A stretch of DNA of 32,973 nucleotides from a virus. The notes below the pieces were generated by a model. The model was not told the origin of the DNA and ran no database searches. It saw only the letters and a program-made list of their open reading frames with translations. The stretch lies in the IMG/VR virus record IMGVR_UViG_3300028392_000196, positions 1 to 32,973 of that record; one strand, written 5' to 3'. Below are positions 18,009 to 32,973 of this stretch, in pieces (position 1 is the first letter of the stretch; each line of letters opens with the position of its first letter). Made by a program: the position numbers and the translations under genes.

Positions 18009-18508
18009 TAATAATCTCCTTGATCAGTAATTACTGGCAGTTCAGCAACACGACGTAGAGCAGCAACATATTCTTCAGATGTACCAGCAACAACGATAGT
18101 GTTATTAGTTATTGTACTAGTAGGCATGTTATCAAGACCCAATACTTTAGCACGCGCTTGAATAATCTTTAATGCTGTTTCTACGGCTTGCCTGTCACCA
18201 TTAATGGCGTCTTGCCATACAGCGCTTTGCAACTCATCAAGCCGGTCCACTTCCATAGCCAGTAAAGACCTTTTGTGGCCAGCGTCTACTAAGTCTGCGG
18301 CTTCTTTTAAAGCATCAGAAATCAAAGTGTTTACGTTTCGCTCTGAAATTCCTAGGTGTTCTGCTATTGACCATAAAGAGCGACCTGATCTGCGCATTTC
18401 TAGTGCTTTTCTGGCTTTTTCGTTGCGTTCGTCTTGTAAAAGCGCCGCTGAAGTAACTTTTTTGGTTCTAGCTATTTCTTTAGTAACAGCCGCTTTTTTT
18501 ACCGTCAT
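18008..18508 (-). CDS. Terminase small subunit-like HTH protein
   Basis: 166 residues. A helix-turn-helix at about 45-66 (WSIAEHLGISERNVNTLISD) is followed by a long helical region (LDELQSAVWQDAINGDRQAV, then ALKIIQARAKVLGLD). This arrangement is typical of actinophage small-terminase-like proteins that recognise packaging sites. AGAAGGAG precedes ATG 18508, which overlaps the WhiB stop (ATGA). It lies about 11 kb from the large terminase and on the other strand, so it could instead be a regulator. No other candidate small subunit is seen next to the large one. Confidence 0.65.
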   Translation of the reverse strand: MTVKKAAVTKEIARTKKVTSAALLQDERNEKARKALEMRRSGRSLWSIAEHLGISERNVNTLISDALKEAADLVDAGHKRSLLAMEVDRLDELQSAVWQDAINGDRQAVETALKIIQARAKVLGLDNMPTSTITNNTIVVAGTSEEYVAALRRVAELPVITDQGDY

Positions 18509-18936
18509 TTCTTTCTCCTTCTAGGAGCTACAAAAGCTTTGTCGTCATAATCATCCATGGTTTTTTGCACGTTACCTTTATTGCGTGCTAAAGCCGCTCT
18601 TCGTTCAAAACTTGTAAAACCGCCCCATACACCAAAAGGCTCTTGTTTTTTTAAGGCTGTAATTAAACAGTCACGCTGAACATCACATAGTTTGCAAATA
18701 GATTTAGCATAATTTATTTGCTGTGAAGACATTGGCAAATCGGAGTGTCCATAAAATATTTCTGATGGCATTCCAAAGCAATAAGAATCGTCACGCCAAT
18801 CTCTGCGTGCCGTATAGCGCCAAGCAAGTGGCGTCGATGGCGTCTTGAGGTTTTTTGAGTTGCTGGCAGGCGTCGTAATAATTGGGGTGTTTGGAAGCAA
18901 GCCATCTTGCGACAGCTTCTTTGTCCGATCTTCCAT
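18505..18936 (-). CDS. whiB: WhiB-like transcriptional regulator
   Basis: 143 residues from ATG 18936. Four cysteines have WhiB spacing (C53, C81, C84, C90 as CxxCxxxxxC), followed by GVWGG (102-106) and ERR and a basic C-terminus (RRRKK). These proteins hold a 4Fe-4S cluster, bind the primary sigma factor and redirect transcription. WhiB proteins are restricted to actinobacteria and their phages. The first 49 codons overlap the RuvC-like gene by 146 bases in another frame, and no later start keeps all four cysteines. Confidence 0.92.
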   Translation of the reverse strand: MEDRTKKLSQDGLLPNTPIITTPASNSKNLKTPSTPLAWRYTARRDWRDDSYCFGMPSEIFYGHSDLPMSSQQINYAKSICKLCDVQRDCLITALKKQEPFGVWGGFTSFERRAALARNKGNVQKTMDDYDDKAFVAPRRRKK

Positions 18937-19258
18937 TACCAACTACCGCCTTTTTCCATGATGAAGGTCCAATAAATATTACCTCTGATTCTACTCGCTG
19001 TGCTGCCACAGCCAAAGCACCGGCTACCATACCCATAGATATGCCCGTACGGATGTTGTGGCTAGCGCCCTGAATTGCTTGTTCAATAACAGTCAATTCA
19101 GGGCACGTAGCCCACATTAGGTTGGTTAACCAATCAGACAGGATTAATAGGTTTTTGACGTCATCTTTGCTGGTCAAAATGAGTTCTTCAAAAACCATGT
19201 GGCTAGGGTGTGCGAACGCAATTCGTCTTACACCATAGTCAACTCCTGCTGCATCCAT
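18791..19258 (-). CDS. RuvC-like Holliday junction resolvase
   Basis: 155 residues, close to RuvC length. Acidic catalytic residues are in place: D7 (GVDYG), E59 (TVIEQ) and D139/D142 (QDAIDATCLA). WKKAVVGNGRSDK (101-113) matches the RuvC substrate loop. It should cut four-way junctions made during replication or recombination before packaging. It follows the polymerase, Cas4-like nuclease and small genes. Its 3' end overlaps whiB by 146 bases. The Shine-Dalgarno of ATG 19258 is weak. Confidence 0.88.
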   Translation of the reverse strand: MDAAGVDYGVRRIAFAHPSHMVFEELILTSKDDVKNLLILSDWLTNLMWATCPELTVIEQAIQGASHNIRTGISMGMVAGALAVAAQRVESEVIFIGPSSWKKAVVGNGRSDKEAVARWLASKHPNYYDACQQLKKPQDAIDATCLALYGTQRLA

Positions 19259-20701: not shown

Positions 20702-23343
20702 GATTCTTCTCTTTCTAAGCCGATTAAAGCACCGGCATCAAATAGCGCAGCGACAATACCGCCACATGCTGATGGTGTGTGACCTAGCCCAAGTGATTTT
20801 GCACCTGTGACTCTTCTTCCGCTTACTTTTCGTGCTAAATCATCAAGTGAAGTGTATGGTGCATGTCTGACAATCTCCTCTGCGGCTTTTGTGCCTACGT
20901 TCTTAATAGAGGTTAATCCTTTACGGATTGCGTTTTGTTTGATGTCAGCCGAGTAACCTTCTTGTGATCTATTTACATGTGGGGGTCTTATTTGTACTCC
21001 TGCTTCTCTAGCTGCTTTAAGGTAAAGCGGTTCTTGTTTTGCGCCTGTGTAGGAATGTAGCATTCCTGCCCAAAACGCTGCTGGGTGGTGCACTGAATAG
21101 TAACCAGTTATGTATGCTAAGACACCGTATGCTGTTGCATGTGCTTTGTTAAACCCATAGCCAGCGTATGCCTCAAGCGCTTCTTCTAGCCATGCCAAGT
21201 CATGAATGTTCATGCCTTTGGCTAATGCTAGTTCGCGTACACGCTTAAGTAGTTCTACCAATTCATCTCTTGCATCACCAACATTGGCGTTAGATGCTTT
21301 AATGACTTTGCGCATGCGTTCAATTTCTTCAGCGTCCAAACCAATATTGCGCATAACACCAATAACTTGTTCTTGGTATAAAAGCACGCCGTATGTGTCT
21401 TTGGTCTCATCAGAAATAATTGCGTGACGTTGCGGTACTGGCTCTACTCTTTGCCTACGGTAAATGAAATCGTCAGTAGCGCCTGACTCCATAGTTGCAG
21501 GTCTAAACAGCGCCATAGCAGCAATAACATCAGCAATCTTTGTAGGCTTTAACCTACGAACACCACTGCGGCTAGAACCGCCTTCCAACTGAAACATACC
21601 AACCGTATTGCCTTTAGACATAGCACTATATACAGAACGATCATTAAGCGGAATGTCTTCAGGATTTACGCCTGAATACTCACTCATAATACGCAAAGCA
21701 GTTAGTGTTTTAAGGCCTAGCAAATCAAGTTTTACTAAACCTAAACGCTCAACATCATCTTTATCAAACGATGTCACCATAGTTTTACTTGAAGCAACAT
21801 ATTGCAGCGGGACCACAGATGCGGCTTCTGCGCTAGGTGCAACAAGTAATCCAGCAGCATGGACGCCATAGCCCAAGAATGCTTTCTTGTTTGCTAAACC
21901 TTTTAGTGCATTCCATTGATACGTAGTTAAAGGTATGTCAGGGTCTGCGCCAAGTTTTCTTGCACGCATTTTCCATCGAACCATAAGGCTACCTTTTTGG
22001 TCATTTTCATCATCATCTAGACCCATTTGTAGCCAAGTGCTGATGTTAACAACGTGAAAGTTATCTCTAAGCCAGTTAACTACCTCATCTCGACGGTCAT
22101 GCTCAACATCAATATCGATATCTGGTGGCTTAGTCCGGTCTTTTGATAAAAATCGGTCAAACCTTAATCCCCAAACAATTGGATCAAAAGATGTGATGCC
22201 TAATAGCCAACAAAGTAGCGAACCAGATGCTGAACCACGAACGTTATAATTGATTTTGTTTTCGTCCATGTATCTGCAAACAGCAGCAGTAAATACTAAA
22301 TAGCCTGAAAAACCAGCATTTGTAATAACATCTAATTCTTCATAGATACGGTCTAAGTAAGCCTTTTTCTTGCTTGGCTTTAACTTTCCTGTTTCTATTT
22401 TGTAATCTAATGATTTTAAACTTACTTCTGCTAGTTCTTTTTCAGGATTTCCAGTAACTGTCGTGTCAGGTACTTTAAGCGAAAAAGTATCCAACTCTGG
22501 AATTACTACTTTTGCTTTAGACAACAAATCATCAAGCCCTTGCATTCCTGCGTTAAAAATTGCTGGGGCGTGGTGTTCTTTCATCCATTGTGTATCTACC
22601 ATGTGGTACCCATCACCAGGAAACAGCGCATCCTCTGGGTCTTCTGACCAAGATACAAGCTCTTTCATGGTGTCATGCAGTACACGATCAGACTCTTCTA
22701 CATAATGCGAGTCTTGCGTAATAATCACCGGTAGACCGTGCTTTTGTGCAATGCGCCATTGAAGGTTTGAGTGCAGGTCGCTATCTTGACCATCTAAATA
22801 GATTGCGTGGTTTTGTATTTCTACATAAAGACCTGAACCAAACCAGCCAGCCATACTCATAAGTAGGTTATCTGTAATCTTGTCGATGTCTGCATTTGGT
22901 GTTTTTAGTGTTTCAGACAAGACACCAAACCAACAGCCGGTCATTGCTGCAATGCCATCTAATCTTCCGTCTTCAGCAGCTTGTGCTAAGTCCGCAAAGT
23001 CTAGAATTGGCTTGTATTTGAACTGTTGGTGTGACTGCGTAACAAGCCCGGAAAGGTTGCGATAGCCTCTTTCACTTGTTGCAAGCATACCTAAGTGCAT
23101 AGTGTCTGGGCGTTTTTGTTCTCTGTTAACTGCGATGTATGCTTCAACACCAGGCAAAGGCAATATTCCGGCTTTTCTGCAACCTGTATAAAGTTGCACA
23201 GAGCCAGCCATTGTTCCATGATCTGTTAACCCAAGAGCAGGGTATTCTAACTCTTTGGCTTTATTGACTATTGCATCGACGGTTGGCAGAGCATCTTTAA
23301 CAGAGTAGCGACTGTGTGTGTGTGCACTCCAAAACGTGCTCAT
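20698..23343 (-). CDS. dnaE: DNA polymerase III alpha subunit (DnaE-like), short phage form
   Basis: 881 residues versus about 1,160-1,180 in bacteria. The PHP domain (1-215) keeps H8, H10, D17, H42, E67, H83, C137, D211 and H213, the full metal set of active proofreading PHP domains. The palm has NVRGSASGSL (367-376) and catalytic D408, D410 (PPDIDID) and D540 (VKLDLLGL). FNKAHATAYG (731-740) and a helix-hairpin-helix (SIKNVGTKAAEEIV) follow. The chain ends after this region, lacking the OB and tau-binding domains of host DnaE. It is the replicative polymerase of this phage. AGGAG precedes ATG 23343. Confidence 0.95.
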   Translation of the reverse strand: MSTFWSAHTHSRYSVKDALPTVDAIVNKAKELEYPALGLTDHGTMAGSVQLYTGCRKAGILPLPGVEAYIAVNREQKRPDTMHLGMLATSERGYRNLSGLVTQSHQQFKYKPILDFADLAQAAEDGRLDGIAAMTGCWFGVLSETLKTPNADIDKITDNLLMSMAGWFGSGLYVEIQNHAIYLDGQDSDLHSNLQWRIAQKHGLPVIITQDSHYVEESDRVLHDTMKELVSWSEDPEDALFPGDGYHMVDTQWMKEHHAPAIFNAGMQGLDDLLSKAKVVIPELDTFSLKVPDTTVTGNPEKELAEVSLKSLDYKIETGKLKPSKKKAYLDRIYEELDVITNAGFSGYLVFTAAVCRYMDENKINYNVRGSASGSLLCWLLGITSFDPIVWGLRFDRFLSKDRTKPPDIDIDVEHDRRDEVVNWLRDNFHVVNISTWLQMGLDDDENDQKGSLMVRWKMRARKLGADPDIPLTTYQWNALKGLANKKAFLGYGVHAAGLLVAPSAEAASVVPLQYVASSKTMVTSFDKDDVERLGLVKLDLLGLKTLTALRIMSEYSGVNPEDIPLNDRSVYSAMSKGNTVGMFQLEGGSSRSGVRRLKPTKIADVIAAMALFRPATMESGATDDFIYRRQRVEPVPQRHAIISDETKDTYGVLLYQEQVIGVMRNIGLDAEEIERMRKVIKASNANVGDARDELVELLKRVRELALAKGMNIHDLAWLEEALEAYAGYGFNKAHATAYGVLAYITGYYSVHHPAAFWAGMLHSYTGAKQEPLYLKAAREAGVQIRPPHVNRSQEGYSADIKQNAIRKGLTSIKNVGTKAAEEIVRHAPYTSLDDLARKVSGRRVTGAKSLGLGHTPSACGGIVAALFDAGALIGLEREES

Positions 23344-23370
23344 TATTTCTCCTGAAATATGTAGACAACA

Positions 23371-23400
23371 AAGGAGGCTGCCCCGCAGGACAGCCCCCTT
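23371..23400 (-). terminator. Hairpin between the SSB-like gene and dnaE
   Basis: A 10-bp stem AAGGGGGCTG/CAGCCTCCTT (minus strand) encloses a 10-base loop. One position is G-U on the minus RNA but A-C on the plus RNA, so selection acts on the leftward transcript. A weak TGTTGTC follows, so partial termination or processing is likely. Confidence 0.55.
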
Positions 23401-23411
23401 CGTAGTTATGA

Positions 23412-24314
23412 TTAAACGTTGTGCGCTTCGGCAAGTGCAATCAACGCAGAGCGTGTGGACCGTGGCGGAATAGAAACATTAGCCTTAGTCAACAGTGTCT
23501 TAAGACGCACATCAGAAATAGATGCATACTTGTTATCATCTGCAGATTCAGTCTCAATGACTGCTTCTTCGTATGATTCAACAACATCGTATTCTTCATC
23601 TGCGATAGTTGTTTCAATGTGCGTAGATGAGAGACTGCGAACAAACTCTTCAACATCCTTGCGAACGGAAGCAAATACTTCAACCAAATCGTACGGTTCA
23701 GGTAGTTCAACCGGTGGTTCGTCCTTGATTTGCTTAACGCTCAAGGTAGTGCTCAAGCCAGTTCCACTGACAGTAAGTGCCCACGGATGAGTTGTGCAAG
23801 AGAAGTTCTCGTCAACATCCTTGTATGTGTTAAAAGCCTTAAACAAGTCTCTTGCTCGCGCAGCGCTCATCTTAAGAATGACATGCTTACCTTCTTCAGT
23901 AAGAATGTTTACAGCAACCTTGTCTTGGCCTTTAACACGACCATCTGCAGGTGGGAACCTTAGTGATGGCACAACAAGTTCAAGTAGAGGGTCAGTGCCT
24001 CGTGGGGCATATTGACGAAGCCTTTCGCCTGTTTCAGGGTCTTCAACAATAACTTGGTCGTTGACTGGGAACTCTCGGCAACCTGGTGGGAGTTGGAAAC
24101 CTCCACGCAGACCGTCAAAAGCTGCAACTTCACGGTAAATGTACCATCCGTGATCTTCAGCCATTGTTTCTTTGTCTGTCAAGAAACGAACAATGGTTGT
24201 GCCCTTTTCAAGGCGGTAGATAGGACGGTAATTGCTGTTATTCTTTTGCGGCTGAGCGTATCCATCGATACCGGCCAGCAACATGTCTTCGTCGATGTTG
24301 TAATCAATCGGCAT
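23412..24314 (-). CDS. Single-stranded DNA-binding-like protein
   Basis: 300 residues from ATG 24314, with GGAG 10 bases upstream. The N-terminal 200 residues look like a phage ssDNA-binding OB-type domain (VAVNILTEEGKHVILKMSAA, and HPWALTVSGTGLSTTLSVKQ). An acidic linker follows (230-262), then a small SAP/HeH-like helical end (ISDVRLKTLLTKANVSIPPR, about 266-298). An acidic C-terminal region is typical of SSBs for partner binding. It sits between polymerase and primase/helicase. Family by context and pattern, not by a decisive motif. Confidence 0.65.
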   Translation of the reverse strand: MPIDYNIDEDMLLAGIDGYAQPQKNNSNYRPIYRLEKGTTIVRFLTDKETMAEDHGWYIYREVAAFDGLRGGFQLPPGCREFPVNDQVIVEDPETGERLRQYAPRGTDPLLELVVPSLRFPPADGRVKGQDKVAVNILTEEGKHVILKMSAARARDLFKAFNTYKDVDENFSCTTHPWALTVSGTGLSTTLSVKQIKDEPPVELPEPYDLVEVFASVRKDVEEFVRSLSSTHIETTIADEEYDVVESYEEAVIETESADDNKYASISDVRLKTLLTKANVSIPPRSTRSALIALAEAHNV

Positions 24315-24315
24315 G

Positions 24316-24603
24316 TTAACCAATCTCCTTTGCTTTCTTTGCTTGTAACGCGGCTTCACGCTTAGCGTCAATGATGGCTGCCAAGTTTTCGGCAGTTTGG
24401 AATGCAGTGCCTAGCGCAATTGATTGCGCACGATCACTGGCTTCGTCGGATGTTTCTTCTGGCAATACAGCAATACATGCTTCTGCAGTTGCCCATTGTG
24501 TCTGCCCATTCACCAAAAAGGTATGGGTAACTTTTACTGTTACTTTATCGCCGTCGCTAATGGGGATGGGCGCGTAAACATCGTCATCTTGCTCGTTACT
24601 CAT
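24316..24603 (-). CDS. Small replication-operon protein, unknown function
   Basis: 95 residues from ATG 24603, overlapping the upstream stop by 8 bases; a longer frame starting 30 bases up lies inside the upstream gene. An N-terminal beta part (DKVTVKVTHTFLVNGQTQWA) is followed by a helical C-terminus rich in Ala/Lys (AAIIDAKREAALQAKKAKE). It is placed directly before the SSB-like gene, suggesting a role in replication or recombination. No known family. Confidence 0.65.
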   Translation of the reverse strand: MSNEQDDDVYAPIPISDGDKVTVKVTHTFLVNGQTQWATAEACIAVLPEETSDEASDRAQSIALGTAFQTAENLAAIIDAKREAALQAKKAKEIG

Positions 24604-25018
24604 TTGTATCTTCTTCCGTGTTTGTGACTTCACTGATTGATAGCCACGGCTTGCGCGGTTTAATCATAATGATTTTGTTAGCCAGGTCAGACTCTAAACC
24701 ACCATTAGTTACTATACGGTTAAATGACGTTTTGTCCAACACAGACTTGGTTACTTTTGAATACAATTCTGGCGCTTCTGCTTTTAGCACCGCTAGGTCA
24801 ACGTCAAAAGTTTCACTGCGCATTACTTTTGCTTTGAATTGTCGACTATCAATCTCAAACTCAACCTTGTCAAAAGTATCGGCTAGTTGTTCTTGAATGT
24901 CTTCAATTTCATGCTCAATCTCGGCCTTGCGTGATTTGAGCTGGAGCAAGCGGTAAAGATCTGCTGTTAGTTCTTCATCCGCTTTTGCTATTTCTTCTGT
25001 GTCAATAATATTTGACAT
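24596..25018 (-). CDS. Coiled-coil protein of the replication operon
   Basis: 140 residues. A long helix with heptads at about 15-50 (LYRLLQLKSRKAEIEHEIED) is followed by a globular alpha/beta end (RQFKAKVMRSETFDVDLAVL). Similar proteins lie near SSB and nucleases in other actinophages, without a defined function. It has no catalytic motif. It is coupled to its neighbours by short overlaps or 8-base gaps. Confidence 0.65.
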   Translation of the reverse strand: MSNIIDTEEIAKADEELTADLYRLLQLKSRKAEIEHEIEDIQEQLADTFDKVEFEIDSRQFKAKVMRSETFDVDLAVLKAEAPELYSKVTKSVLDKTSFNRIVTNGGLESDLANKIIMIKPRKPWLSISEVTNTEEDTNE

Positions 25019-25026
25019 CTCTCTCC

Positions 25027-25851
25027 TTAACTGTGTTTTTTGTATGTGCTATTGGTTATTAAGCTGCGAATACTAGTGATTCTGTCACCTACTTTTATTT
25101 CGCCAGGATCGTTTCCACCTACTGTAGACCAGTGGTGTGACAAAACTGGGGAAATGTCGTTCAGTTGGTGTTTTGCTCTTTGAGCCGCACCCCAACCAGC
25201 CGTGTCATCATCAAAAGCAGCAATTACTACCTTTGGTGATAAATCTGCAATCATTTGTACTTGTGGCGCATGTAGACCAGAGCCAAAACAACCTAGTACA
25301 GTCCAGTGGTCTGGTATGCCGGATTGGTCTAAAGCCATCACATCAGCTGCTCCTTCAACAAGCACGACTACTCTTGATGGCTTGTATTCGCCATAAAAAG
25401 TTGCTGATGTACGTACACCGTATGGGTATTTGTATTTGGCTTTTTCATCCTCATGCCTAGTAACAACACCAATAAGTTCATTGTTTTGATTTCTTATTGG
25501 ATATGTTGGTGAACCATCAAGATAATTTGTTCCGCATCTGTGTTTAGTTGCAGTCTCAATACCAAACCTTTTTACCCAGTATGGGCTTGGGCTGTGTGCA
25601 TCAAATACATCAAGCCATGCTTCTGAATAGATACGTGGTGGTACATCACCTGCAAGTACGCGAATAATGTCTTCTACAGTTGGTACATAGCCTTCTGTAG
25701 TTCCGTGTGCTTTACATGCATGGCAATACCACACACCTTTGCCAACATTTACGGATGCTGATGCATTACCGTCATCGTGTACAGGGCAACAGAATGATCT
25801 CTCTAATCCTCTTCCTGTAGATAGAGCCTCATCTAGTGTTATTCGTTTCAT
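25027..25851 (-). CDS. DnaG-type primase (CHC2 zinc finger plus Toprim)
   Basis: 274 residues, shorter than bacterial DnaG. A zinc finger at C22-x2-H25...C43-x2-C46 (CPVH, CHAC) recognises template DNA. The Toprim domain has E166 (LVEGAADV), D214-D216 (AFDDDTAG) and NDPGE (247-251). It would make RNA primers for lagging-strand synthesis, working with the helicase encoded 3 bases upstream. It lacks a long C-terminal helicase-binding domain. Confidence 0.92.
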   Translation of the reverse strand: MKRITLDEALSTGRGLERSFCCPVHDDGNASASVNVGKGVWYCHACKAHGTTEGYVPTVEDIIRVLAGDVPPRIYSEAWLDVFDAHSPSPYWVKRFGIETATKHRCGTNYLDGSPTYPIRNQNNELIGVVTRHEDEKAKYKYPYGVRTSATFYGEYKPSRVVVLVEGAADVMALDQSGIPDHWTVLGCFGSGLHAPQVQMIADLSPKVVIAAFDDDTAGWGAAQRAKHQLNDISPVLSHHWSTVGGNDPGEIKVGDRITSIRSLITNSTYKKHS

Positions 25852-25854
25852 TTC

Positions 25855-27153
25855 TTACCCCATTTGCATTTCTTCAGCTTCGTCATCAGCCATTCTCATT
25901 TCTGCTGCACGTTCGGCGCTAATGTCGCCAAAGCGTCCAAAGGTTGGGTCAAACTCAGTAAACCAGCGCGAACCAGATTCACCGTGTCGATACTTAGTGA
26001 GTGAGTTAAGCAATACATGCTTAGATACTCTTTTGAGCGTCACTAACGCGTCAGCATCTTGTCCTAAAGCATCAGATTGTGCTAAATGTTCAGCGCCTGG
26101 TGTTTTGTCTGAGTTGCCTCCAGCGCGGTTTATTTGTGCCGCGGCAATGATTGGGACATTGCGATTAAGTGCTACTTCTTTAAGTTGGTTAGAAATAGCA
26201 GCCATTGCTCGCCAGTCTTCAATAGCGCGTGAGCCGGTTGTTGTGTGCATAAGGCCAACGTAGTCCACGATAACTAATGTGTTATCACCTGCAACGGCTG
26301 AGATGACTGATGCGTCACATCTGCCTTTGGATGGATCATAGACACTAATTGTTCCTGTGGCTGTTTCTGACCACTTTTCCAATAGTTTGCGGCGTGTATC
26401 AATGTCTATTTCTGTCCATGGACGTTTGTAGTCTTTGAATGCCACTCGATGAATACGATCTTGTACGGATTTAGCAGGCATTTCGAGACTGAAGTATGCA
26501 ACATCCCAGCCACCTTCTGCTGCAGCAACAGCATGTTGAATCATTTTCCATGATTTACCAATACCTAAACGCGCTGCTACAAACCACAAATCACCTGCAG
26601 CAATACCACCAGTGATTGCGCTAAGCATTCCATACGGTACTGGGCACATGTTGAGCTCTTGCTCATTCTCCAAAAGTGTTAAATCTGTAGCATCAATGCC
26701 CATACCAATGGCTGGTTGTATTTGCGATAAACCATTTTTTAGGTAATCAATAGCCTCATCGTTTGCGTCTTCTGCAAGAGATGCTGATGCTTTAGACATT
26801 GCTGAACGTAAAACTCTGTTTGTGTGTGCATCAGATAGTTGACTTGCTGCCCATACAGGGTTTATGTCTGATGTGTACGGGAACCGTGGGTACTTTTCTT
26901 GAAGTAAGTGAACTGGTGGAGCACAGTTAGCATCCTGTTGGTATTTCATACAAAACTCATGAATAGGTTTGTGGCCTGATATTTGTTCTGTCTTAACACC
27001 AAACATACCTGGGATATAGACACCGGTATCTATTAGCGCTGAAATAAACAATGCTTCTGGAGCATGATCTGCTGTAGAACCGTAGTTAACTTGTATGTGC
27101 TTATCACTGACCAGTTTCATGTAACTGTTTTTCTCTTGTTTTTGTAATCCCAT
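25855..27153 (-). CDS. DnaB-like replicative helicase
   Basis: 432 residues. The N-terminal domain (about 30-145) resembles DnaB's partner-binding helices. The RecA-type motor has Walker A ARLGIGKS (194-201), Walker B LVIVDYVGLM (293-302), motif H3 PIIAAAQINR (334-343) and SLTKYRHGESG (384-394) near the arginine finger. It should form a hexamer and unwind DNA for the primase and polymerase encoded downstream. It is the first gene of the replication operon; GGAG lies 6 bases before ATG 27153. A leader with a hairpin and a promoter precede it. Confidence 0.92.
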   Translation of the reverse strand: MGLQKQEKNSYMKLVSDKHIQVNYGSTADHAPEALFISALIDTGVYIPGMFGVKTEQISGHKPIHEFCMKYQQDANCAPPVHLLQEKYPRFPYTSDINPVWAASQLSDAHTNRVLRSAMSKASASLAEDANDEAIDYLKNGLSQIQPAIGMGIDATDLTLLENEQELNMCPVPYGMLSAITGGIAAGDLWFVAARLGIGKSWKMIQHAVAAAEGGWDVAYFSLEMPAKSVQDRIHRVAFKDYKRPWTEIDIDTRRKLLEKWSETATGTISVYDPSKGRCDASVISAVAGDNTLVIVDYVGLMHTTTGSRAIEDWRAMAAISNQLKEVALNRNVPIIAAAQINRAGGNSDKTPGAEHLAQSDALGQDADALVTLKRVSKHVLLNSLTKYRHGESGSRWFTEFDPTFGRFGDISAERAAEMRMADDEAEEMQMG

Positions 27154-27176
27154 TTTTTCTCCTGTGTGTATAAAAC

Positions 27177-27232
27177 AAAATAGCCTTAAGTCTGTATCTA
27201 GAATTACCTAGACTAAGGCTTAAAGCTATTTT
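27177..27232 (-). promoter_or_regulatory. Leader hairpin/attenuator before the helicase gene
   Basis: AGCCTTAGTCT pairs with AGACTTAAGGCT (11 bp, one bulged T). Alternatively AAAATAGC pairs with GCTATTTT, sharing the AGC bases, so the two pairings compete in part. The minus strand continues ATTTTGTTTT, a terminator-like tract. It lies about 50 bases downstream of the operon promoter and 24 before ATG 27153. Confidence 0.55.
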
Positions 27233-27289
27233 TGGGAAGTCAAAAGTTAAAATCTTTTAGGCATACTGCCCCCTCCCCGTGTAAGAGCA

Positions 27290-27298
27290 ATTATACCA
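27290..27298 (-). promoter_or_regulatory. Leftward promoter of the replication operon (extended -10)
   Basis: The minus strand reads TGGTATAAT (27298-27290), a perfect -10 with an extended TGn. No good -35 hexamer lies 17-18 bases upstream, as allowed for extended -10 promoters. It is the only clear promoter in front of the 13-kb leftward operon. Confidence 0.7.
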
Positions 27299-27392
27299 GA
27301 TAAATCTGAATAGGAATACCTAACAGGAAGCCATAGCAGGTAATACTTTGTAACAATCTGATAACAAGAACTTATGGGTAATCAAAGTGGGG

Positions 27393-27419
27393 TTGCGATT
27401 AGAAAGCATATGATACAAT
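27393..27419 (+). promoter_or_regulatory. Rightward promoter of the 27426-27645 RNA
   Basis: TTGCGA (27393-27398) and TACAAT (27414-27419) are 15 bases apart, with TGA directly before the -10 (extended -10). Start is predicted near 27426. It is divergent from the replication promoter 100 bases away. Confidence 0.6.
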
Positions 27420-27425
27420 AAAGGC

Positions 27426-27645
27426 TGAGTACGTAGTGTTCAGAAAGCAGATTAAATAACATTCACAATAACACTCCATTAAAAGTGTTAAAGTGAAAGA
27501 AGCGAAAGCAAAAAATCTGAGTACTTAACTGAGCATAGCTGTTAAAGCGAAGCGCCACTACGGTACGGAAGCCTAAACATATAGCGATAACCACTGTAAA
27601 AAATAGGCAAGGAATAACCCTTGTTAACGCAGGGGTTTTTTCTTT
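27426..27645 (+). ncRNA. Structured small RNA of about 220 bases, class unknown
   Basis: The stretch has a promoter in front, an intrinsic terminator at its end and no coding frame with a ribosome binding site. Nested pairing is clear: CAGATT/AATCTG closes a domain that contains TTCAC/GTGAA stacked on AACACT/AGTGTT and a small AGC-GAA-AGC hairpin. A second domain has CTTAAC/GTTAAAG. CTGAGTAC occurs twice (near 27424 and 27520). No match to RNase P, 6S or tmRNA core motifs was recognised. It precedes the lysis genes. Confidence 0.6.
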
Positions 27646-27646
27646 T
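27616..27646 (+). terminator. Intrinsic terminator of the small RNA
   Basis: AACCCTTG (27616-27623) pairs with CAGGGGTT (27630-27637), 8 bp with one G-T pair and the 6-base loop TTAACG, followed by a run of T through 27641. Canonical shape. Confidence 0.85.
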
Positions 27647-27657
27647 GTGTACACTAG
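27646..27657 (+). promoter_or_regulatory. Putative rightward promoter element before endolysin
   Basis: TGTGTACACTAG follows directly after the terminator and lies 27 bases before ATG 27685. It is the same element as 12175-12186 and similar to 3056-3067. Its place between a terminator and a gene supports promoter function. Confidence 0.6.
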
Positions 27658-27684
27658 ACACATAACTACAATCAAGGAGCAATA

Positions 27685-28101
27685 ATGGCAATATCACGTA
27701 TTACAGGCACTCAAGCATTTTCACACATGAATGTTTGGCGTCTTAATGAAAAAAATGGTTTTCTTGGCTACTGCCACAGAACATGTCAGAATGCTTGGGG
27801 ACTACCTCCTAAGTATGAATCAGCTATTGATGCATGGAATCATGTACCTAAGCAGCATCGTCATACAGATCCAACTAAGGCTCCTATAGGAAGTCCCCAT
27901 TTTTGGGAAGGTGGCTTGTATGGGCATGTGGCGCTTCAGTCAGATAAGAAAGATGTTGTTATTACTACTGATGCCCCTCGCCCTAATTACATTGGTTTAG
28001 AGCACATGGATTTCTTTACTAAGAACTGGGGTAAGAAGTATCTTGGTTGGGCTTCCCAGTACAACGATGTTGATTTGCAGTTGGGTAAGATGCCTTCATG
28101 A
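27685..28101 (+). CDS. Endolysin, CHAP/NlpC-like peptidoglycan hydrolase
   Basis: 138 residues. The pattern C30-HRTCQNAWGLPPKY, SAIDAWN (46-52), PIGSPHFWEGG (67-77), GHVAL with H81, STD-like ITTD and WGKKYLGW (115-122) matches the cysteine-type CHAP/NlpC endolysins of actinophages, in which a Cys near the first block and the His of GHVAL form the active site. It would cut peptidoglycan at lysis. There is no signal peptide, so it needs a holin; the overlapping 47-residue gene is a candidate. AAGGAG lies 5 bases before ATG 27685. Confidence 0.8.
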   Translation: MAISRITGTQAFSHMNVWRLNEKNGFLGYCHRTCQNAWGLPPKYESAIDAWNHVPKQHRHTDPTKAPIGSPHFWEGGLYGHVALQSDKKDVVITTDAPRPNYIGLEHMDFFTKNWGKKYLGWASQYNDVDLQLGKMPS

Positions 28102-28241
28102 TTAAATGGCTCAAGAGTTTAGATTGGGAACTTGTATTGTTCAGGTTCATTATTCTTATGACCGGCGCTTGGGCATTATTCAATGCTTTCTTACTAGCTG
28201 ATTTGTTTTATTGGTACAAGACAGGTCACAATTTCTGGTAA
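28098..28241 (+). CDS. 47-residue membrane protein, candidate holin
   Basis: The frame starts at ATG 28098, overlapping the endolysin stop (ATGA). It reads MIKWLKSLDWELVLFRFIIL, then a hydrophobic stretch (MTGAWALFNAFLLADLFYW) and a polar end (YKTGHNFW). One or two membrane segments in such a short protein, coupled to an endolysin, suggest a holin or lysis regulator. Function is inferred from position and topology only. Confidence 0.65.
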   Translation: MIKWLKSLDWELVLFRFIILMTGAWALFNAFLLADLFYWYKTGHNFW

Positions 28242-28390
28242 TATTTTGCTTAGTGTGGGCTTCCTAGGACGTGCCTTTACTAGCCGCAGTATTGTGGCTC
28301 CGTATGGAGTACCAATACCGCCTTGCCAAGACCCTCGTGCACCACATTCTTTCAGTGTTTGTGGGAGCGGGGGTTTTGTGCTACATTTAA

Positions 28391-28462
28391 GGTACTGTAG
28401 TCCAATAGAGCAGAGACGGCCAGAAAATGGAGGGATTGCAGGTTCAAATCCTGCCAGTACCA
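28391..28462 (+). ncRNA. tRNA-like element lacking a normal anticodon arm
   Basis: A perfect 7-bp acceptor (GGTACTG/CAGTACC, A73) and a perfect T arm (GCAGG-TTCAAAT-CCTGC) are present. The D region keeps only three pairs (GTC/GAC). The segment between D and T arms (20 bases) cannot form a 5-bp stem with a 7-base loop or place U33; only CCA-GAAAA-TGG pairs. CCA is not encoded. A decoding tRNA is unlikely; a tRNA mimic or a domain of the larger RNA is more likely. Confidence 0.65.
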
Positions 28463-28768
28463 CTTCGCTAGTCTATGCACCATGACGTCTGGGAGTATGG
28501 GCCTCCATTAAATTGGGCGGCGGAGTCTTTTATGGAATAAGAGTTTGTTTATTCCAAGTTATATGATAAGTTTTCTTTTAACAGCACGGATTGCAACTGT
28601 GTTGGTGAGTGGCTGAAAAAAGTCTCCTGTTTAGGTGGGATGATAAAGCACAACGTGGGTTTAGCGGCCTGGACTTAGCGGTCTAAAGCGTTGGTAGGAA
28701 CAAGGCGGTACATAGGATACCTAAACTTCTCCTTGGTGGTAACAGACAATCCACCCTTACAACCTTAA

Positions 28769-28816
28769 GGCCCCGTATGCGGACATGATCTGATTGTGAC
28801 CGGTACGGGGTCTTTT
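28769..28816 (+). terminator. Intrinsic terminator ending the large RNA
   Basis: GGCCCCGTA pairs with TACGGGGTC (one G-T), continued after a small internal loop by CGG/CCG, and is followed by TCTTTTG. It terminates rightward transcription before the tRNA-like 80-base element. Confidence 0.75.
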
Positions 28817-28852
28817 GTGATTTTAGTAGTGTAGAACCTGTGAAATTGGTAG

Positions 28853-28881
28853 TGTTATATTGTTTACATTGAAATATAACA
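28853..28881 (+). repeat. Perfect AT-rich hairpin
   Basis: TGTTATATT (28853-28861) and AATATAACA (28873-28881) pair over 9 bp with an 11-base loop. AAAA follows, so it is not a rightward terminator. It may be an operator or part of the upstream structure of the next RNA. Confidence 0.5.
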
Positions 28882-28902
28882 AAACCACGCTAAGTGTTAC
28901 AT

Positions 28903-28953
28903 TGTTGCATCTTAGTGCAACACTTTGCTTGGTTATGTTGCACCACAATGCAA
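28903..28953 (+). repeat. Alternating TGTTGCA/TGCAACA inverted repeats
   Basis: TGTTGCA (28903-28909) pairs with TGCAACA (28916-28922); a second TGTTGCA (28936-28942) pairs with TGCAA (28949-28953), ending exactly at the first base of the tmRNA-like element. The four half-sites could be two hairpins, a pseudoknot or two protein-binding sites. Confidence 0.55.
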
Positions 28954-29033
28954 GGGGCAGGAAGGTTTCGACTAGACATTAAAACCGCATGTCGGTAGTG
29001 TTTAGGACCAGAGTTCAATTCTCTGCTGCTCCA
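28954..29033 (+). ncRNA. tmRNA tRNA-like domain without message domain (mini-tmRNA)
   Basis: 80 bases. The 7-bp acceptor GGGGCAG/CTGCTCC has a G3-U70 wobble and A73, the alanine identity elements used by tmRNA. The 5' side continues GAAGGTTTCGACT, nearly the same as actinobacterial tmRNA starts as I remember them. TTTAGGACC precedes the T arm CAGAG-TTCAATT-CTCTG, again as in tmRNA. In place of the message domain is one arm: TAGACAT/GTGTTTA (7 bp, two wobbles) then ACCG/CGGT with loop CATGT. No tag reading frame is present and no standard anticodon loop forms. CCA is not encoded. Confidence 0.7.
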
Positions 29034-29059
29034 CACGCGGCCAAACAAAGGAGATAAGT

Positions 29060-29530
29060 GTGACAACGCAAACATTAGAGAAGACACTTGATAGGTTTTA
29101 TTCAAAAACTCAAGTATCTGCAGGTACTGATTGCTTGAAGTGGGTTGGTGCTATTAATAGCCAAGGTTATGGAAACTTTTGGTATGAAGGTAAGACTGTT
29201 TCAGCACATAGGTTTATTTTTGTTATGCGCAAGAATGATGGTGAATGGCTAGATAGAAAACTAGTTGTTAGACACACATGTGATACTAGAGATTGCACAA
29301 ACATTGATCACCTTATTTCTGGTACTTACGGCGACAACTTGCAAGATGCTTGGGATAGGAATCGTCGTAGTCGCACGTTAAAGAAAAAGTCTTCTGCAGT
29401 TGCTAAAAAATGGAGTGAACACGCTCACGATGTGGGACTAGATGATTTGGAAACCCCTACGTTAGAGCAGATACGTACTGCTCAAAAGTTAGCTCGTGAA
29501 GTTCTTAGGGAACAAAAAGCGCGTGGCTAG
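29060..29530 (+). CDS. HNH endonuclease next to the large terminase
   Basis: 156 residues from GTG 29060, with AAGGAG 7 bases upstream. The core AHRFIFV (49-55), H72-TCDTRDC, TNIDHL (80-85) and GTYGDNLQDAWDR (88-100) matches the 'HxCDxxxCxNxxHLxxGTxxDN' HNH family. The C-terminal tail is basic then acidic. HNH proteins beside terL often help terminase cut DNA in long-tailed phages, so a packaging role is plausible; a homing enzyme is the alternative. It is unrelated in motif to the HNH at 11000-11353. Confidence 0.85.
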   Translation: MTTQTLEKTLDRFYSKTQVSAGTDCLKWVGAINSQGYGNFWYEGKTVSAHRFIFVMRKNDGEWLDRKLVVRHTCDTRDCTNIDHLISGTYGDNLQDAWDRNRRSRTLKKKSSAVAKKWSEHAHDVGLDDLETPTLEQIRTAQKLAREVLREQKARG

Positions 29531-29591
29531 TTATGTGTTGACAGTCTTGCTACTGCTATGGTGGGTTGCATCATCGTACTCAGGAAAGTAA
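29523..29591 (+). CDS. 22-residue membrane peptide
   Basis: A frame starting GTG 29523 inside the HNH gene end encodes a peptide of which VLTVLLLLWWVASSYSGK is the hydrophobic part. Its TAA (29589-29591) abuts ATG 29592 of terL. The exact fit between two genes and the membrane helix suggest a real peptide or a coupling cistron, but the evidence is limited. Confidence 0.4.
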   Translation: MASYVLTVLLLLWWVASSYSGK

Positions 29592-31097
29592 ATGACTGAA
29601 TCACCTATTTTTAGCCTTGTCAGGCCACCAACCAATAAAGAAGAGTTGTGGTGGACTGTTAAAGCGCTGTGGGGTGTTGAACTTCCAAGAGTGCAAGTGT
29701 GTCCGGATCACACAGCGCCTTTTGATGCTTTTGCAGAGGCGTATTTTGGTAATGATTACAACTGGGTGCTTTGGTATGGTTCGCGTGGTACAGGCAAGTC
29801 TTACATGCTTGCTTTGCTTGCTTTAACTAAGGCTGCTTTGCTTGAGATTAACGTAACGCTTCTTGGTGGGTCTATGGCTCAGTCACAAAACATTCATGAG
29901 CATGTGGAGTTTTTGACGCAATTTCGTAATGCGCCAGTGCACGCTATTGAATCAATTATCAAGACACAAATTACTTTTACTGGTGGTAACTGGATTCGTC
30001 CTCTACCAGCTTCTCAAAAGACTGTTCGTGGTCCTCACCCTCAAATGACTCTGCTTGATGAGATTGACGAAATGGAGCGTAAGATTTATGACGCTGCTAT
30101 GGGTCAGGCTATGACTAAACCTAACGTGCGTGGCGTTGAGATTCCTGAAATGGTTGTTGCTTCTTCTACTTGGCAAAACCCTGTTGGCACGTTTCAGTCT
30201 GTTATGGATGAAGCTTTGGCTAAGGGTATGCCTGTTCGTACGTGGTGTTATCGTGAGCAGTTGAAACCTAATGGGTGGATGGATCCTGATTTTATTGAAC
30301 GTAAACGTATGTCTGTTCCAGCAGAAATGTTTCGTGTTGAGTATGAACTTGGTGAACCTGCTGGTGGGTCTCGTGCGTTTGATTTGGAAAAGTTAAATAA
30401 GGCTTTTGTTGAATTGCAGATTGTTGATGAGCGTCATTCTGCTAATGATGATGAGTGGATTTTTGAGCATCCAGTGCCTACTGCTACTTATTCTGCTGGG
30501 GCTGATTGGGCAAAAGAGCAAGATAAGACTGTTATTGCTGTGTTTAGGTTAGATGAGGGTAAGCGCACTCTTGTTTATTATCGCCGGTTTAATCGTATGG
30601 ATTGGCCTACGATGATTGGTGTTTTTAACAAGGTAACTACTGACTATCAGGCTATGGCAGCGCATGATGCTACTGGTATTGGCAATGTTGTTCATGACAT
30701 GGTTGATGAGCGTGTGATTAAGTTTACGATGTCTTCTCAGAAGCGTACTGAGATGCTTACTAATTACATTACTGCTGTTGAGCAGGGGCGTTATCGTTTG
30801 CCTCGCAATACGCCTGCTTACAATGAGCATAAGTCCACTACTGTTGAGGAAGTTTTTGGTGGTGGTGGTTGGAACTCTCATTTGTCTGATGATGTGTGTG
30901 CTTTTGCTTTGGCTCATCATGCTGCTGAACGTATGGCTCCTCCTGCTTCTGGTGAGGGTGTTAAGAAAACTGAATTTGCTCCGGCTAAGTTTAAAGAGAT
31001 TACTCCTGTCTATGAGGATGATGGGCGTTACGTTACGCAGGTTGGTTCAGTGACTGTTAAGGATGACAGTGGTGTTGGAGTTTTTAACCTTTTCTGA
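29592..31097 (+). CDS. terL: Terminase large subunit
   Basis: 501 residues, standard length. The ATPase domain has Walker A GSRGTGKS (63-70), Walker B MTLLDEID (152-159; D156, E157) and a coupling TW motif (SSTWQNP, 191-197). The RNase H-like nuclease has D305 (AGADWA), D359 (AAHDATGIG) and D434 (LSDDVCAFALAH). It cuts concatemeric DNA and pumps it into the procapsid. Next to it is an HNH gene. No small subunit lies adjacent; the best candidate is at 18008-18508. The stop is followed after 63 bases by a membrane protein gene. Confidence 0.95.
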   Translation: MTESPIFSLVRPPTNKEELWWTVKALWGVELPRVQVCPDHTAPFDAFAEAYFGNDYNWVLWYGSRGTGKSYMLALLALTKAALLEINVTLLGGSMAQSQNIHEHVEFLTQFRNAPVHAIESIIKTQITFTGGNWIRPLPASQKTVRGPHPQMTLLDEIDEMERKIYDAAMGQAMTKPNVRGVEIPEMVVASSTWQNPVGTFQSVMDEALAKGMPVRTWCYREQLKPNGWMDPDFIERKRMSVPAEMFRVEYELGEPAGGSRAFDLEKLNKAFVELQIVDERHSANDDEWIFEHPVPTATYSAGADWAKEQDKTVIAVFRLDEGKRTLVYYRRFNRMDWPTMIGVFNKVTTDYQAMAAHDATGIGNVVHDMVDERVIKFTMSSQKRTEMLTNYITAVEQGRYRLPRNTPAYNEHKSTTVEEVFGGGGWNSHLSDDVCAFALAHHAAERMAPPASGEGVKKTEFAPAKFKEITPVYEDDGRYVTQVGSVTVKDDSGVGVFNLF

Positions 31098-31160
31098 TTG
31101 CAATCGTTTGTTTGTGGGCTTAGGCTTGTAACGTCTGTTTTCTCAGTTTGCGAGGTTCTT

Positions 31161-31445
31161 ATGAACACTTTTCTTAAATGGTTTGGTACTAGTCCTGTTG
31201 CGGCTGTGCTAAAGATTGCTGTTAGTGGCTTGTTGGTTATTGTGTTTGATTCGATTAATTCTTATCATTTGCCTGCAGGTGTAGCTTTGGTTATTACTGC
31301 TTTTATTCCTGTTGTTGTGGACTATCTAAATCCGCATGATGCTCGTTTTGGTAAGGGCGCTGCGCCTAGCCTTGTGGATTTTTTGCAGGCTTACACTAAG
31401 GTTATTAATGCTGAGTCTGCTAATAGTGAGACGCCACAATCATGA
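31161..31445 (+). CDS. Two-segment membrane protein, holin-like
   Basis: 94 residues from ATG 31161, with GAGG 7-8 bases upstream; the frame extends 21 codons further up without a site. Two membrane segments (VAAVLKIAVSGLLVIVFDSI and LPAGVALVITAFIPVVVDYL) are separated by a short loop, and a soluble tail ends in NSETPQS. Size and topology fit holins of actinophages. The next gene overlaps by ATGA. A capsid-associated membrane role cannot be excluded. Confidence 0.6.
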   Translation: MNTFLKWFGTSPVAAVLKIAVSGLLVIVFDSINSYHLPAGVALVITAFIPVVVDYLNPHDARFGKGAAPSLVDFLQAYTKVINAESANSETPQS

Positions 31446-31681
31446 GTGAAAAAATCGTTTCGTTAGGCCAGTTAGCGTTTGCTATCGCTTCTATCTTGTC
31501 TTTGGCCGGGATTCTTGTTCGTTGGGGAATTGTTAAACCTTTGAAGCGTTTTATTGCTGACCAAACGTACCCTATTCAGCCTCATGCTAATGGGGGCGAT
31601 TCTTTGCCTGATGTTATTAAGACTATTAAACGTATTGAAAATAAGTTGGACCAGCACCTTGAAGTAGATCACGGACGCTAA
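31442..31681 (+). CDS. Single-pass membrane protein with C-terminal coiled coil
   Basis: 79 residues. One membrane segment (LAFAIASILSLAGILVRWGI, about 9-28) is followed by a polar part and a terminal helix (VIKTIKRIENKLDQHLEVDH). This resembles DUF2746-type small membrane proteins near actinophage lysis genes. Its ATG overlaps the previous stop. With the upstream protein it may form a holin/antiholin-like pair; inferred only. Confidence 0.6.
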   Translation: MSEKIVSLGQLAFAIASILSLAGILVRWGIVKPLKRFIADQTYPIQPHANGGDSLPDVIKTIKRIENKLDQHLEVDHGR

Positions 31682-31723
31682 AAAAGCCATAGTGTATGGT
31701 TATCTCATACCTTCGGAGGATTT

Positions 31724-32152
31724 ATGGAACTTATTGCGTCTTTGCGTAAAACATTGGCTAATGTTGTTACTGAGTATTTTCATGCTCATGGGTTTCATTG
31801 GAATGTTGTTGGCCCTGAGTTTGCGCAGTTGCATGAGTTTTTTGAGTCTGTGTATGAAGACATTTATTCTTCGATTGACCCTATTGCTGAGATTTTGCGT
31901 AAGTTGAATGCTAAGTCTCCTTTTCGTTTGTCTGAGTTTATGGCTGATTCTACGATTACTGAGGCTAATCCTGTTGAGGCTTTAGATATGGTTCATGCTT
32001 TGAGCATGATGAATACTAAGGTTATTGAGTCTTTGAATGAGACTTATGGTTTGGCTAATGATGCTAATGAGCAGGGTGTGTGTAATTTTATTGCTGAACG
32101 TATTGATATGCATAAGAAGTGGGCGTGGCAGATGCGCTCATTGTTGAGTTAG
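31724..32152 (+). CDS. Dps/ferritin-like protein
   Basis: 142 residues. The Dps ferroxidase ligands are in place: H25 (FHWNVVGPEF), H37 (QLHEFF), E41 (Asp in many homologues), D52 and E56 (SSIDPIAE). The HWNVxGP..xxLH phrase is the family signature. Dps forms a 12-subunit shell that oxidises and stores iron and can bind DNA. The N-terminus is short, without the Lys-rich DNA-binding tail of E. coli Dps. CGGAGGA lies 5 bases before ATG 31724. It lies in the packaging/structural block, an unusual place. Confidence 0.88.
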   Translation: MELIASLRKTLANVVTEYFHAHGFHWNVVGPEFAQLHEFFESVYEDIYSSIDPIAEILRKLNAKSPFRLSEFMADSTITEANPVEALDMVHALSMMNTKVIESLNETYGLANDANEQGVCNFIAERIDMHKKWAWQMRSLLS

Positions 32153-32154
32153 TT

Positions 32155-32973
32155 ATGTATGTTCGTAAGAGTCAGTTAGAGATTCCTGGCATTGGTGATG
32201 TGTTTCATGAGACTGCTAAGCGTAAATTACCTAACTATGCTTGGTGGAAGCACATGAATGGTAAAACTTCTAAAGTGCAAGTTATTGGTCCGCATCCAAC
32301 GCTTAAAGACCATTTTCATGTTATTGATCATCAAGATGTTAAGCGTGCTTTACATCGTGACCAAATTTCGTTTATTAAGTCAAAACCTATTTCAAAGTCG
32401 TTGGAGTATAGTGTAGTTATGGATTCTGTAAATAAAAAATATGACGGTCGTGACTTGTCGCATTTGTCCACCAAAGACAGAATCAAAAATAATCCTCAAG
32501 TTATAGCACCTATTGCCGGCGGAACTGCTCTTACCGGTATGGCGATACGAAATTATCATAAAGCCAATGTTGCTTTTTTAGACAGCCGCAAAAATTTGTT
32601 TGGTTATGGGGAGAATGCTTTATCAGCACACCATAATCCAAATAACGAAATTGCCGCTTCTGCTTCTAAAGATCAAGAAATTGCTGCGTGGAAGCACGGG
32701 AAAAAATTAGTAAAAAGAGGCAATAAATATCTCGCTGGTTCTGCTGCGCTGATGACTGCTGGTATGGCAAATAATGTTAGAGTTGCAAACAAACGACATA
32801 AACTTTATGAGCAAAAAAATGGACATCCACCAGAAATCAAAAAATCTATGAATCAGTCGCGTTTTGGTGGAGCAAGTGCTGTTGCTAAGGGTCACGCAGG
32901 GGATAAGTATGACAAAGAGCTTGCTGAAAATCGTGCAAAGATTAGCACTACTCACACTATTAATCGCAATGCT
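32155..32973 (+). CDS. Unknown phage protein, truncated by the window edge
   Basis: An open frame from ATG 32155 (2 bases after the Dps stop) runs 273 codons to the window end without a stop. It begins MYVRKSQLEIPGIGDVFHET. It is basic and polar, with many His and Lys (GPHPTLKDHFHVIDHQDVK). Two Ala/Gly-rich hydrophobic stretches near residues 120-135 (VIAPIAGGTALTGMAI) and 195-215 (YLAGSAALMTAGMA) may be membrane-active. By position it could be an internal capsid, portal-associated or ejected protein. No family is recognised. Confidence 0.6.
   Translation, partial: MYVRKSQLEIPGIGDVFHETAKRKLPNYAWWKHMNGKTSKVQVIGPHPTLKDHFHVIDHQDVKRALHRDQISFIKSKPISKSLEYSVVMDSVNKKYDGRDLSHLSTKDRIKNNPQVIAPIAGGTALTGMAIRNYHKANVAFLDSRKNLFGYGENALSAHHNPNNEIAASASKDQEIAAWKHGKKLVKRGNKYLAGSAALMTAGMANNVRVANKRHKLYEQKNGHPPEIKKSMNQSRFGGASAVAKGHAGDKYDKELAENRAKISTTHTINRNA

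Follow-up and report, generated by a model that had tools for sequence, protein, structure and literature searches.

The phage RNA closest to the one described here is the 'TLD only' tmRNA of mycobacteriophage DS6A, an actinobacterial phage, which also consists of little more than a tRNA-like domain (PMC4131195, PMC11915505; these and the other papers cited by PMC number were available as excerpts). In these excerpts a 2014 survey (PMC4131195) and a 2025 one (PMC11915505) name DS6A as their one phage example, and the tmRNA database of the latter has nine unique entries classed as 'standard, no CDS'. PMC4131195 reports strong inhibition of tmRNA by a molecule resembling the DS6A TLD, irrespective of its ability to be charged and perhaps through titration of SmpB; according to PMC11915505, the endogenous tmRNA of E. 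coli is inhibited by the DS6A form. The CDS-less tmRNAs of mitochondria and plastids have no tag frame either, and the two plastid sequences are about 65 bp long, but these are organelle-encoded and the mitochondrial form is usually permuted (excerpt of PMC11915505). A truncated tmRNA has been crystallised with SmpB, EF-Tu and the ribosome (excerpts of PMC8363625 and PMC3968760); it too is without the pseudoknot ring and the message domain, but it is a laboratory construct. Full-length tmRNAs such as those of Mycobacterium phage Bxz1 and OM43 phage Melnitz, the latter a two-piece form, are also phage-encoded, but they keep the message domain.

In the open-licence literature of PubMed Central, represented mostly by titles and the starts of abstracts, we found no description of a widespread phage family of message-less tmRNAs. 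The kind of RNA that we report is already known from DS6A; what is new is its breadth, its covariation and its unbroken alanine-charging signature. Where the excerpts give DS6A as one named phage, the present count is at least 119 stretches from viruses, backed by covariation, along with cultured phages of other hosts.

An 80-nt RNA made of the tRNA-like domain and helix H2

The window, which is the whole stretch of DNA that was analysed, is an IMG/VR virus record of 32,973 bases, and it contains an 80-nt RNA gene on the plus strand at 28954–29033. This RNA is a tmRNA reduced to the tRNA-like domain and helix H2, with a short hairpin as the cap. The first-pass annotation had read the locus as a tmRNA tRNA-like domain without its message domain, and the Rfam tmRNA model (RF00023) bears this out: it matches 28954–29036 at 61.4 bits (E 7.4e-22; gathering score 47) in an alignment that spans the first to the last model column, matches both ends and skips 288 columns, the pseudoknot and message region, with 0 nt.

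The 7-bp acceptor stem pairs GGGGCAG (28954–28960) with CTGCTCC, which together with the discriminator A73 occupies 29026–29033. Its G3-U70 pair and A73, the alanine identity of tmRNA, are both present; CCA is absent from the gene, in which A73 is followed by CAC. The tmRNA-type D-loop motif GGTTTCGAC (28964–28972) corresponds to a region that contacts SmpB in tmRNA. Helix H2 has its 5' strand at 28973–28980 and its 3' strand at 28997–29004, and GGAC (29005–29008) forms the junction ahead of the T arm, CAGAG-TTCAATT-CTCTG (29009–29025), with 5 bp and the loop TTCAATT. The acceptor 5' strand is identified from the sequence, the RF00023 alignment and the fold; the D-loop motif, GGAC and the acceptor 3' strand from sequence and alignment; the T arm from alignment and fold; and the two H2 strands, which covary, from alignment and folds. 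All of the elements listed by the first reading (the 7-bp acceptor with G3-U70, A73, the 5' motif, GGAC and the tmRNA-type T arm) are there in the sequence.

Where pseudoknots and tag frame would stand, the folds show an A bulge of 3 nt within H2 (28981–28983) and an apical hairpin, ACCG-CATGT-CGGT (28984–28996), that caps the helix. Folded alone, the arm has 8 bp below the A bulge and 4 bp above it, closed by a 5-nt loop; the single interrupted arm of the first-pass annotation therefore stands, while the length of 11 bp given for it has to be corrected to 12 bp (8 + 4). The RF00023 model likewise has a 3-column interruption in H2. The minimum free energy (MFE) of the whole RNA is −27.8 kcal/mol (z −3.1), with 1 of 200 shuffles equally stable; the MFE fold has a few extra pairs in the D region, and the centroid fold is close to the layout given here.

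Set against bacterial tmRNA (ssrA, RF00023), the window RNA shares G3-U70, A73, GGNTTCGAC, GGAC, the T arm and the interrupted H2, but it has no pseudoknots, resume codon, tag frame or H5, and it measures about 80 nt as opposed to 230–400 nt (excerpt of PMC3968760). The RF00023 alignment, ARAGORN and the fold agree on the absence of pseudoknots, resume codon and tag frame, and in this respect it is not a functional ssrA. Judged by what marks the DS6A type, a tRNA-like domain is present and tag frame and pseudoknots are absent, a likeness that rests on description and not on sequence comparison. The phage RNA looks like the natural counterpart of the crystallised truncated tmRNA.

ARAGORN, run on the whole window, predicted no tRNA and no tmRNA. 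A canonical tRNA, which the first-pass annotation had named as an opposing outcome, was rejected on this ground and because an arm of 8 + 4 bp with a 5-nt loop is not an anticodon arm with a 7-nt loop. RF00023 matches nowhere else in the window, a record that is possibly a fragment. The sole other Rfam match above threshold is tRNA-like (28391–28462, plus strand, 36.6 bits), an odd or decayed tRNA that ARAGORN does not call. Slightly below its gathering score of 55.2, the manA RNA motif (RF01745) matches 28583–28765 on the plus strand at 52.1 bits (E 2.9e-12), about 190 bases upstream of the 80-nt RNA. No promoter-like site was found upstream on the plus strand; a weak terminator-like hairpin (28903–28922) lies directly before the RNA, of a sort that occurs at a rate barely different from that in shuffles, and nothing in the promoter and terminator scans clearly exceeded shuffles. 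BLAST of the RNA and its flanks against 'phages' returned zero matches.

Census of the layout and covariation of its helices

A single strict pattern for this layout, which we call mini-tmRNA, matched at least 119 IMG/VR viral stretches; extrapolated very roughly, from a sample that is possibly unrepresentative, the total would be about 340. The pattern imposes TTCGAC, GGAC, G53, most of the T loop, Y69, U70, C71 and C72, positions that are not countable as conserved, and leaves the acceptor 5' strand free. We examined 120 sequences, the 119 matches listed and the window. Among these, 117 have a complete 7-bp acceptor partner (best of 14 offsets), 118 form all five pairs of the T stem, and 108 form at least five of the first six H2 pairs; the acceptor and T-arm pairing, whose loss in related phages would have told against the first reading, is kept. 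The arm is 30 nt long in 21 of the 120. Restricting the pattern to arms of 30 nt gave a complete list of 60 stretches, the basis of the extrapolated total; 59 of them have the full acceptor, every one of these with G3. When U70 was swapped for any other base in a comparable pattern, 0 viral stretches matched, and the same was true when A73 was swapped. These zeros are both a chance control and a biological result, and they rule out chance occurrence of the layout.

ARAGORN labelled none of 116 loci as a gene of about 80 nt, which may be why the family has been missed. Three loci were swallowed into apparent tmRNAs of more than 320 nt (L008, L047 and L093); at the first of these, in record G004, Rfam matches an 85-nt form only, and at L093 the covariance model R1 (see below) detects the short form at 70.9 bits. 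ARAGORN also found a tRNA elsewhere on 20 of the 116 loci. The base following A73 is C in 109 of the 116, despite a full CCA being encoded in just 36.

From the matches listed we collected 100 distinct sequences with a complete acceptor, of which 91 are viral (the window included) and 9 come from bacterial genome records. Three loci (L014, L080 and L084) were dropped for having fewer than seven acceptor pairs, and L115 was removed for its 47-nt arm, although R1 later scored it at 51.9 bits and it may be genuine; 99 sequences were counted. Pair 3-70 is G-U in all 99. The pattern imposes U70 but leaves G3 free, so that A-U was possible at this pair; it was never seen. In the same 99 sequences, again from the matches listed, the T-arm pairs are standard throughout (99/99), the counts of standard pairs at H2 pairs one to six are 97, 95, 89, 91, 83 and 82, pairs 5-68 and 6-67 show at least four pair types each, and GG, which the pattern does not impose, stands immediately 5' of N-TTCGAC in at least 71. 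For acceptor pairs 4–7, T-arm pairs 49–52 and the six H2 pairs, the observed count was reached by 0 of 2000 shuffles. Acceptor pairing of 100%, here and in the 16-sequence set below, is partly by construction because a complete acceptor was a condition for inclusion; the 120 sequences above give the figures free of this selection.

We further aligned sequences of equal length without gaps, using 16 of 17 (L052 was omitted as near-identical to L044). In this alignment 95.2% of cells are paired, compared with 71.1% after shuffling and at most 50.6% in slid controls, and the covariation score is 0.674, compared with 0.179 shuffled and at most 0.146 slid. Two-sided changes occur at 16 of the 22 pairs and in every helix. 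Selection for a full acceptor inflates the acceptor statistics and leaves H2 and the T arm unaffected; in H2 alone, two-sided changes are present at 7 of 7 pairs, with 90.2% of cells paired. R1, built from these 16 sequences with the window excluded, scores the window RNA at 81.4 bits. On the window and 20 chosen loci, the lowest-scoring RNA taken as a mini-tmRNA reaches 41.7 bits (L010), and all other matches stay at or below 30.0 bits. Compensatory changes preserve the mini-tmRNA in many phages, in a form that has no pseudoknots, resume codon or tag.

Positions 21783–32973 of the window recur at 99.7% identity within the 136-kb record G001 (L250); an assembly artefact is ruled out by this second record and by the presence of the type in cultured phage genomes. 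G001 (135,953 bases) contains at least the window's right third at 99.7% and, elsewhere, a version at about 81%, each with a mini-tmRNA, which would be either two related phages on one contig or an assembly joining. In more distant relatives the RNA is 94% (L251), 91% (L253) and 94% (L059) identical to that of the window, against about 81%, about 73% and 68–69% for the aligned backbone, and in four further viral contigs (L110, L105, L069 and L098) blastn aligns just the RNA and a few bases, at 77–89% identity. With flanks of up to 500 nt, the alignments to these seven relatives start and stop at the RNA or a few bases from it, except in L253, where the alignment runs 18 bases further upstream to the contig start; further matches in the downstream flank cover 22 nt in L251 and 121 nt, at 70%, in L059. 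The apical hairpin holds three of the five changes in L251 and four of the five in L059, and in both its pairs are left intact by two-sided changes. In the window, L251, L253 and L059 the RNA lies 5' of the terL region and shares its strand.

Phages and bacterial records that carry the RNA

The window probably comes from an actinobacterial phage, judging by a gene for a WhiB protein and by a DnaE-type polymerase most similar to those of Gordonia phages (34% identity); its terL gives only weak matches, to Thermus and Tunturiibacter phages. The phage WhiB-like protein (18505–18942, minus strand) adjoins a sigma-70 region 4 protein (18008–18508, minus strand), suggesting an actinobacterial host, and a ferritin-like protein is encoded downstream of the terminase (31724–32152, plus strand).

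Among cultured phages, RF00023 matches above its cutoff in the Streptomyces phages LuckySocke, BRock, pSt2308 and Shaeky and in Stenotrophomonas virus Jojan60, and GiJojo gave a BLAST match to the RNA of L057 at 97% identity over the full RNA length. In all six, a tmRNA annotation is missing at this place. The mini-tmRNA of LuckySocke occupies 17977–18054 of OR725497.1. The Streptomyces phages Alone3 and Riptide have a pairable acceptor with G3-U70 and changed letters in the D loop, GGAC or the T arm; Alone3 scores 53.9 bits with R1 and 36.8 bits, below the cutoff, with RF00023. The divergent mini-tmRNA of Riptide (L247:1472-1548) retains G3-U70, has lost TTCGAC and GGAC, and scores 55.1 bits with R1 with no RF00023 match. 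Two other BLAST matches were set aside: that in Pseudomonas phage SM1 (L248:1422-1813) is not a mini-tmRNA but a permuted full tmRNA (RF04321, 118.6 bits) that is unannotated in its record, and that in Mycobacterium phage Shandong1 covers the 3' end only, with no RF00023 match.

For genome context, 37 viral records were hand-picked among the pattern carriers with a preference for length and diversity, so that the sample is not random. The Rfam cutoff was passed in 35 of them, the two below it being G005 (from L014) and G021, whose RNA lies at the contig edge and scores 80 bits with R1 (as measured on L253). SmpB (PF01668) was found in 0 of 36 viral records, an absence that is weak for each single record because many are fragments. 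One of the records, G006 (123.6 kb), carries a full 392-nt tmRNA (L249, G006:77588-77979; 94.2 bits, with a doubtful tag call) in addition to its mini-tmRNA (L016).

The strict pattern also matched at least 119 times in bacterial genomes; among the matches listed, a 7-bp acceptor precedes the motif in 9, and many of the remaining 110 resemble, at a glance, the 3' ends of ordinary tmRNA. The nine are labelled Mycobacterium, Acidimicrobiales, Prochlorococcus, two cyanobacteria, Sinomicrobium and Bacillota (three contigs, two of them from one genome), most of them in metagenome bins whose labels can be wrong. Head or terminase genes are present at two of the seven bacterial loci whose proteins were scanned (L168 and L170). 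A full-length tmRNA of 351–398 nt is found on a separate contig in seven of the eight bacterial genomes or bins with a mini-tmRNA. The mini-tmRNA contig of the Prochlorococcus record also bears a Pistol ribozyme (L179:1621-1716, 54.8 bits).

A probable charged competitor of tmRNA and its alternatives

We infer a competitor of host tmRNA from the retention of the parts for charging, SmpB and EF-Tu together with the absence of the parts for resuming translation. The window RNA is probably a functional TLD-only tmRNA that, charged with alanine and carrying no message, would block trans-translation during infection. Host enzymes would mature the mini-tmRNA and add CCA, host AlaRS would attach alanine to it, and the host's SmpB and EF-Tu would bring it to ribosomes stalled at mRNA ends, where it would occupy the place of host tmRNA. 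The nascent chain may pass to its alanine, and a resume codon could not then be offered. Tagging and degradation via trans-translation would be suppressed in infection by SmpB capture, by abortive A-site occupancy, or by both.

That G3-U70 and A73 are never broken suggests selection for the charged form, and points to delivery to stalled ribosomes rather than SmpB capture alone. As inhibition is independent of charging in the excerpt of PMC4131195, SmpB titration alone fails to explain the strictness of G3-U70. A charged decoy acting on SmpB and EF-Tu fits the conserved G3-U70 and A73, the lack of SmpB in 36 carriers and the published statements on DS6A-type molecules. G006, with a full tmRNA beside its mini-tmRNA, fits poorly with a pure inhibitor.

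That record is better accommodated by the main rival, an unlikely one in our judgement, in which the RNA performs a tag-less rescue for the benefit of the phage: the charged mini-tmRNA with SmpB would take the nascent chain, drop off and free the ribosome untagged. The strict G3-U70 and A73 imply that the charged form matters and so agree with this reading, and a CDS-less mitochondrial tmRNA has been suggested to help with incomplete mRNAs (excerpt of PMC11915505). The effect reported for a TLD-only molecule, however, is inhibition of tmRNA (excerpts of PMC4131195 and PMC11915505). Moreover, a dedicated release partner was not recognised among the window proteins scanned, a subset of its ORFs.

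It is a good deal less probable that the RNA is a decoy mainly for AlaRS or EF-Tu, and not for SmpB or stalled ribosomes. Such a target would agree with position 3 being G in 99/99 of the sequences from the matches listed and with zero viral matches departing from U70 or A73. An AlaRS decoy should, however, need little beyond the acceptor stem, and H2 is conserved too, with its inner bulge and closed apical hairpin.

The first-pass annotation had also offered a reduced tmRNA left by recombination at host ssrA, and on this point, as distinct from the identification itself, it did not hold up. Phages do integrate at tmRNA genes (excerpt of PMC10654092), a 32-base T-arm match in Shandong1 lies just upstream of a tyrosine integrase, and in Shaeky a serine integrase lies about 1.5 kb upstream of the mini-tmRNA, separated from it by a row of tRNA genes. 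Even so, a remnant of integration at, or recombination with, ssrA, whether an attP-type fragment or a pseudogene, is very improbable: the RNA, which has a 5' half covarying with its 3' half, is better conserved than the backbone, and the two-sided changes in every helix, found across many phages, contradict it as a general explanation. A search confined to tyrosine integrases (PF00589) gave matches in five of the 36 viral records, none closer to a mini-tmRNA than about 3.3 kb (G024), and no match in the window. An attP fragment consisting of the 3' end of ssrA next to an integrase was rejected for the window by its 5' half and the same lack of PF00589. Least probable of all is one half of a split tmRNA with its message domain elsewhere in the phage, for although two-piece forms exist and 50 of 53 suggested in phages come from marine or aquatic samples (excerpt of PMC9004378), the permuted or two-piece model RF04321 reaches only 22.5 bits here against a cutoff of 47, RF00023 matches once in the window (possibly a fragment), and H2, closed by a hairpin with two-sided changes, leaves no strand free for a partner RNA.

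Beyond the window RNA, for which a charged competitor is the preferred reading, we tentatively suggest, with a little less than even confidence, that tmRNAs lacking a message form a widespread class of RNA, missed by ARAGORN, in viruses of several bacterial phyla; they would redirect or stop host ribosome rescue and act in the alanine-charged state, not just by soaking up SmpB. The G3-U70 pair in 99 of 99 otherwise divergent sequences, from the matches listed, would be the signature of such charged-state action, that is, of abortive alanine donation. If phages do possess a large, covarying, alanine-marked RNA family of this kind, then blocking or rerouting trans-translation would be a common phage strategy. 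The cultured Streptomyces carriers make it testable whether a phage gains from halting rescue and whether the RNA acts charged or uncharged.
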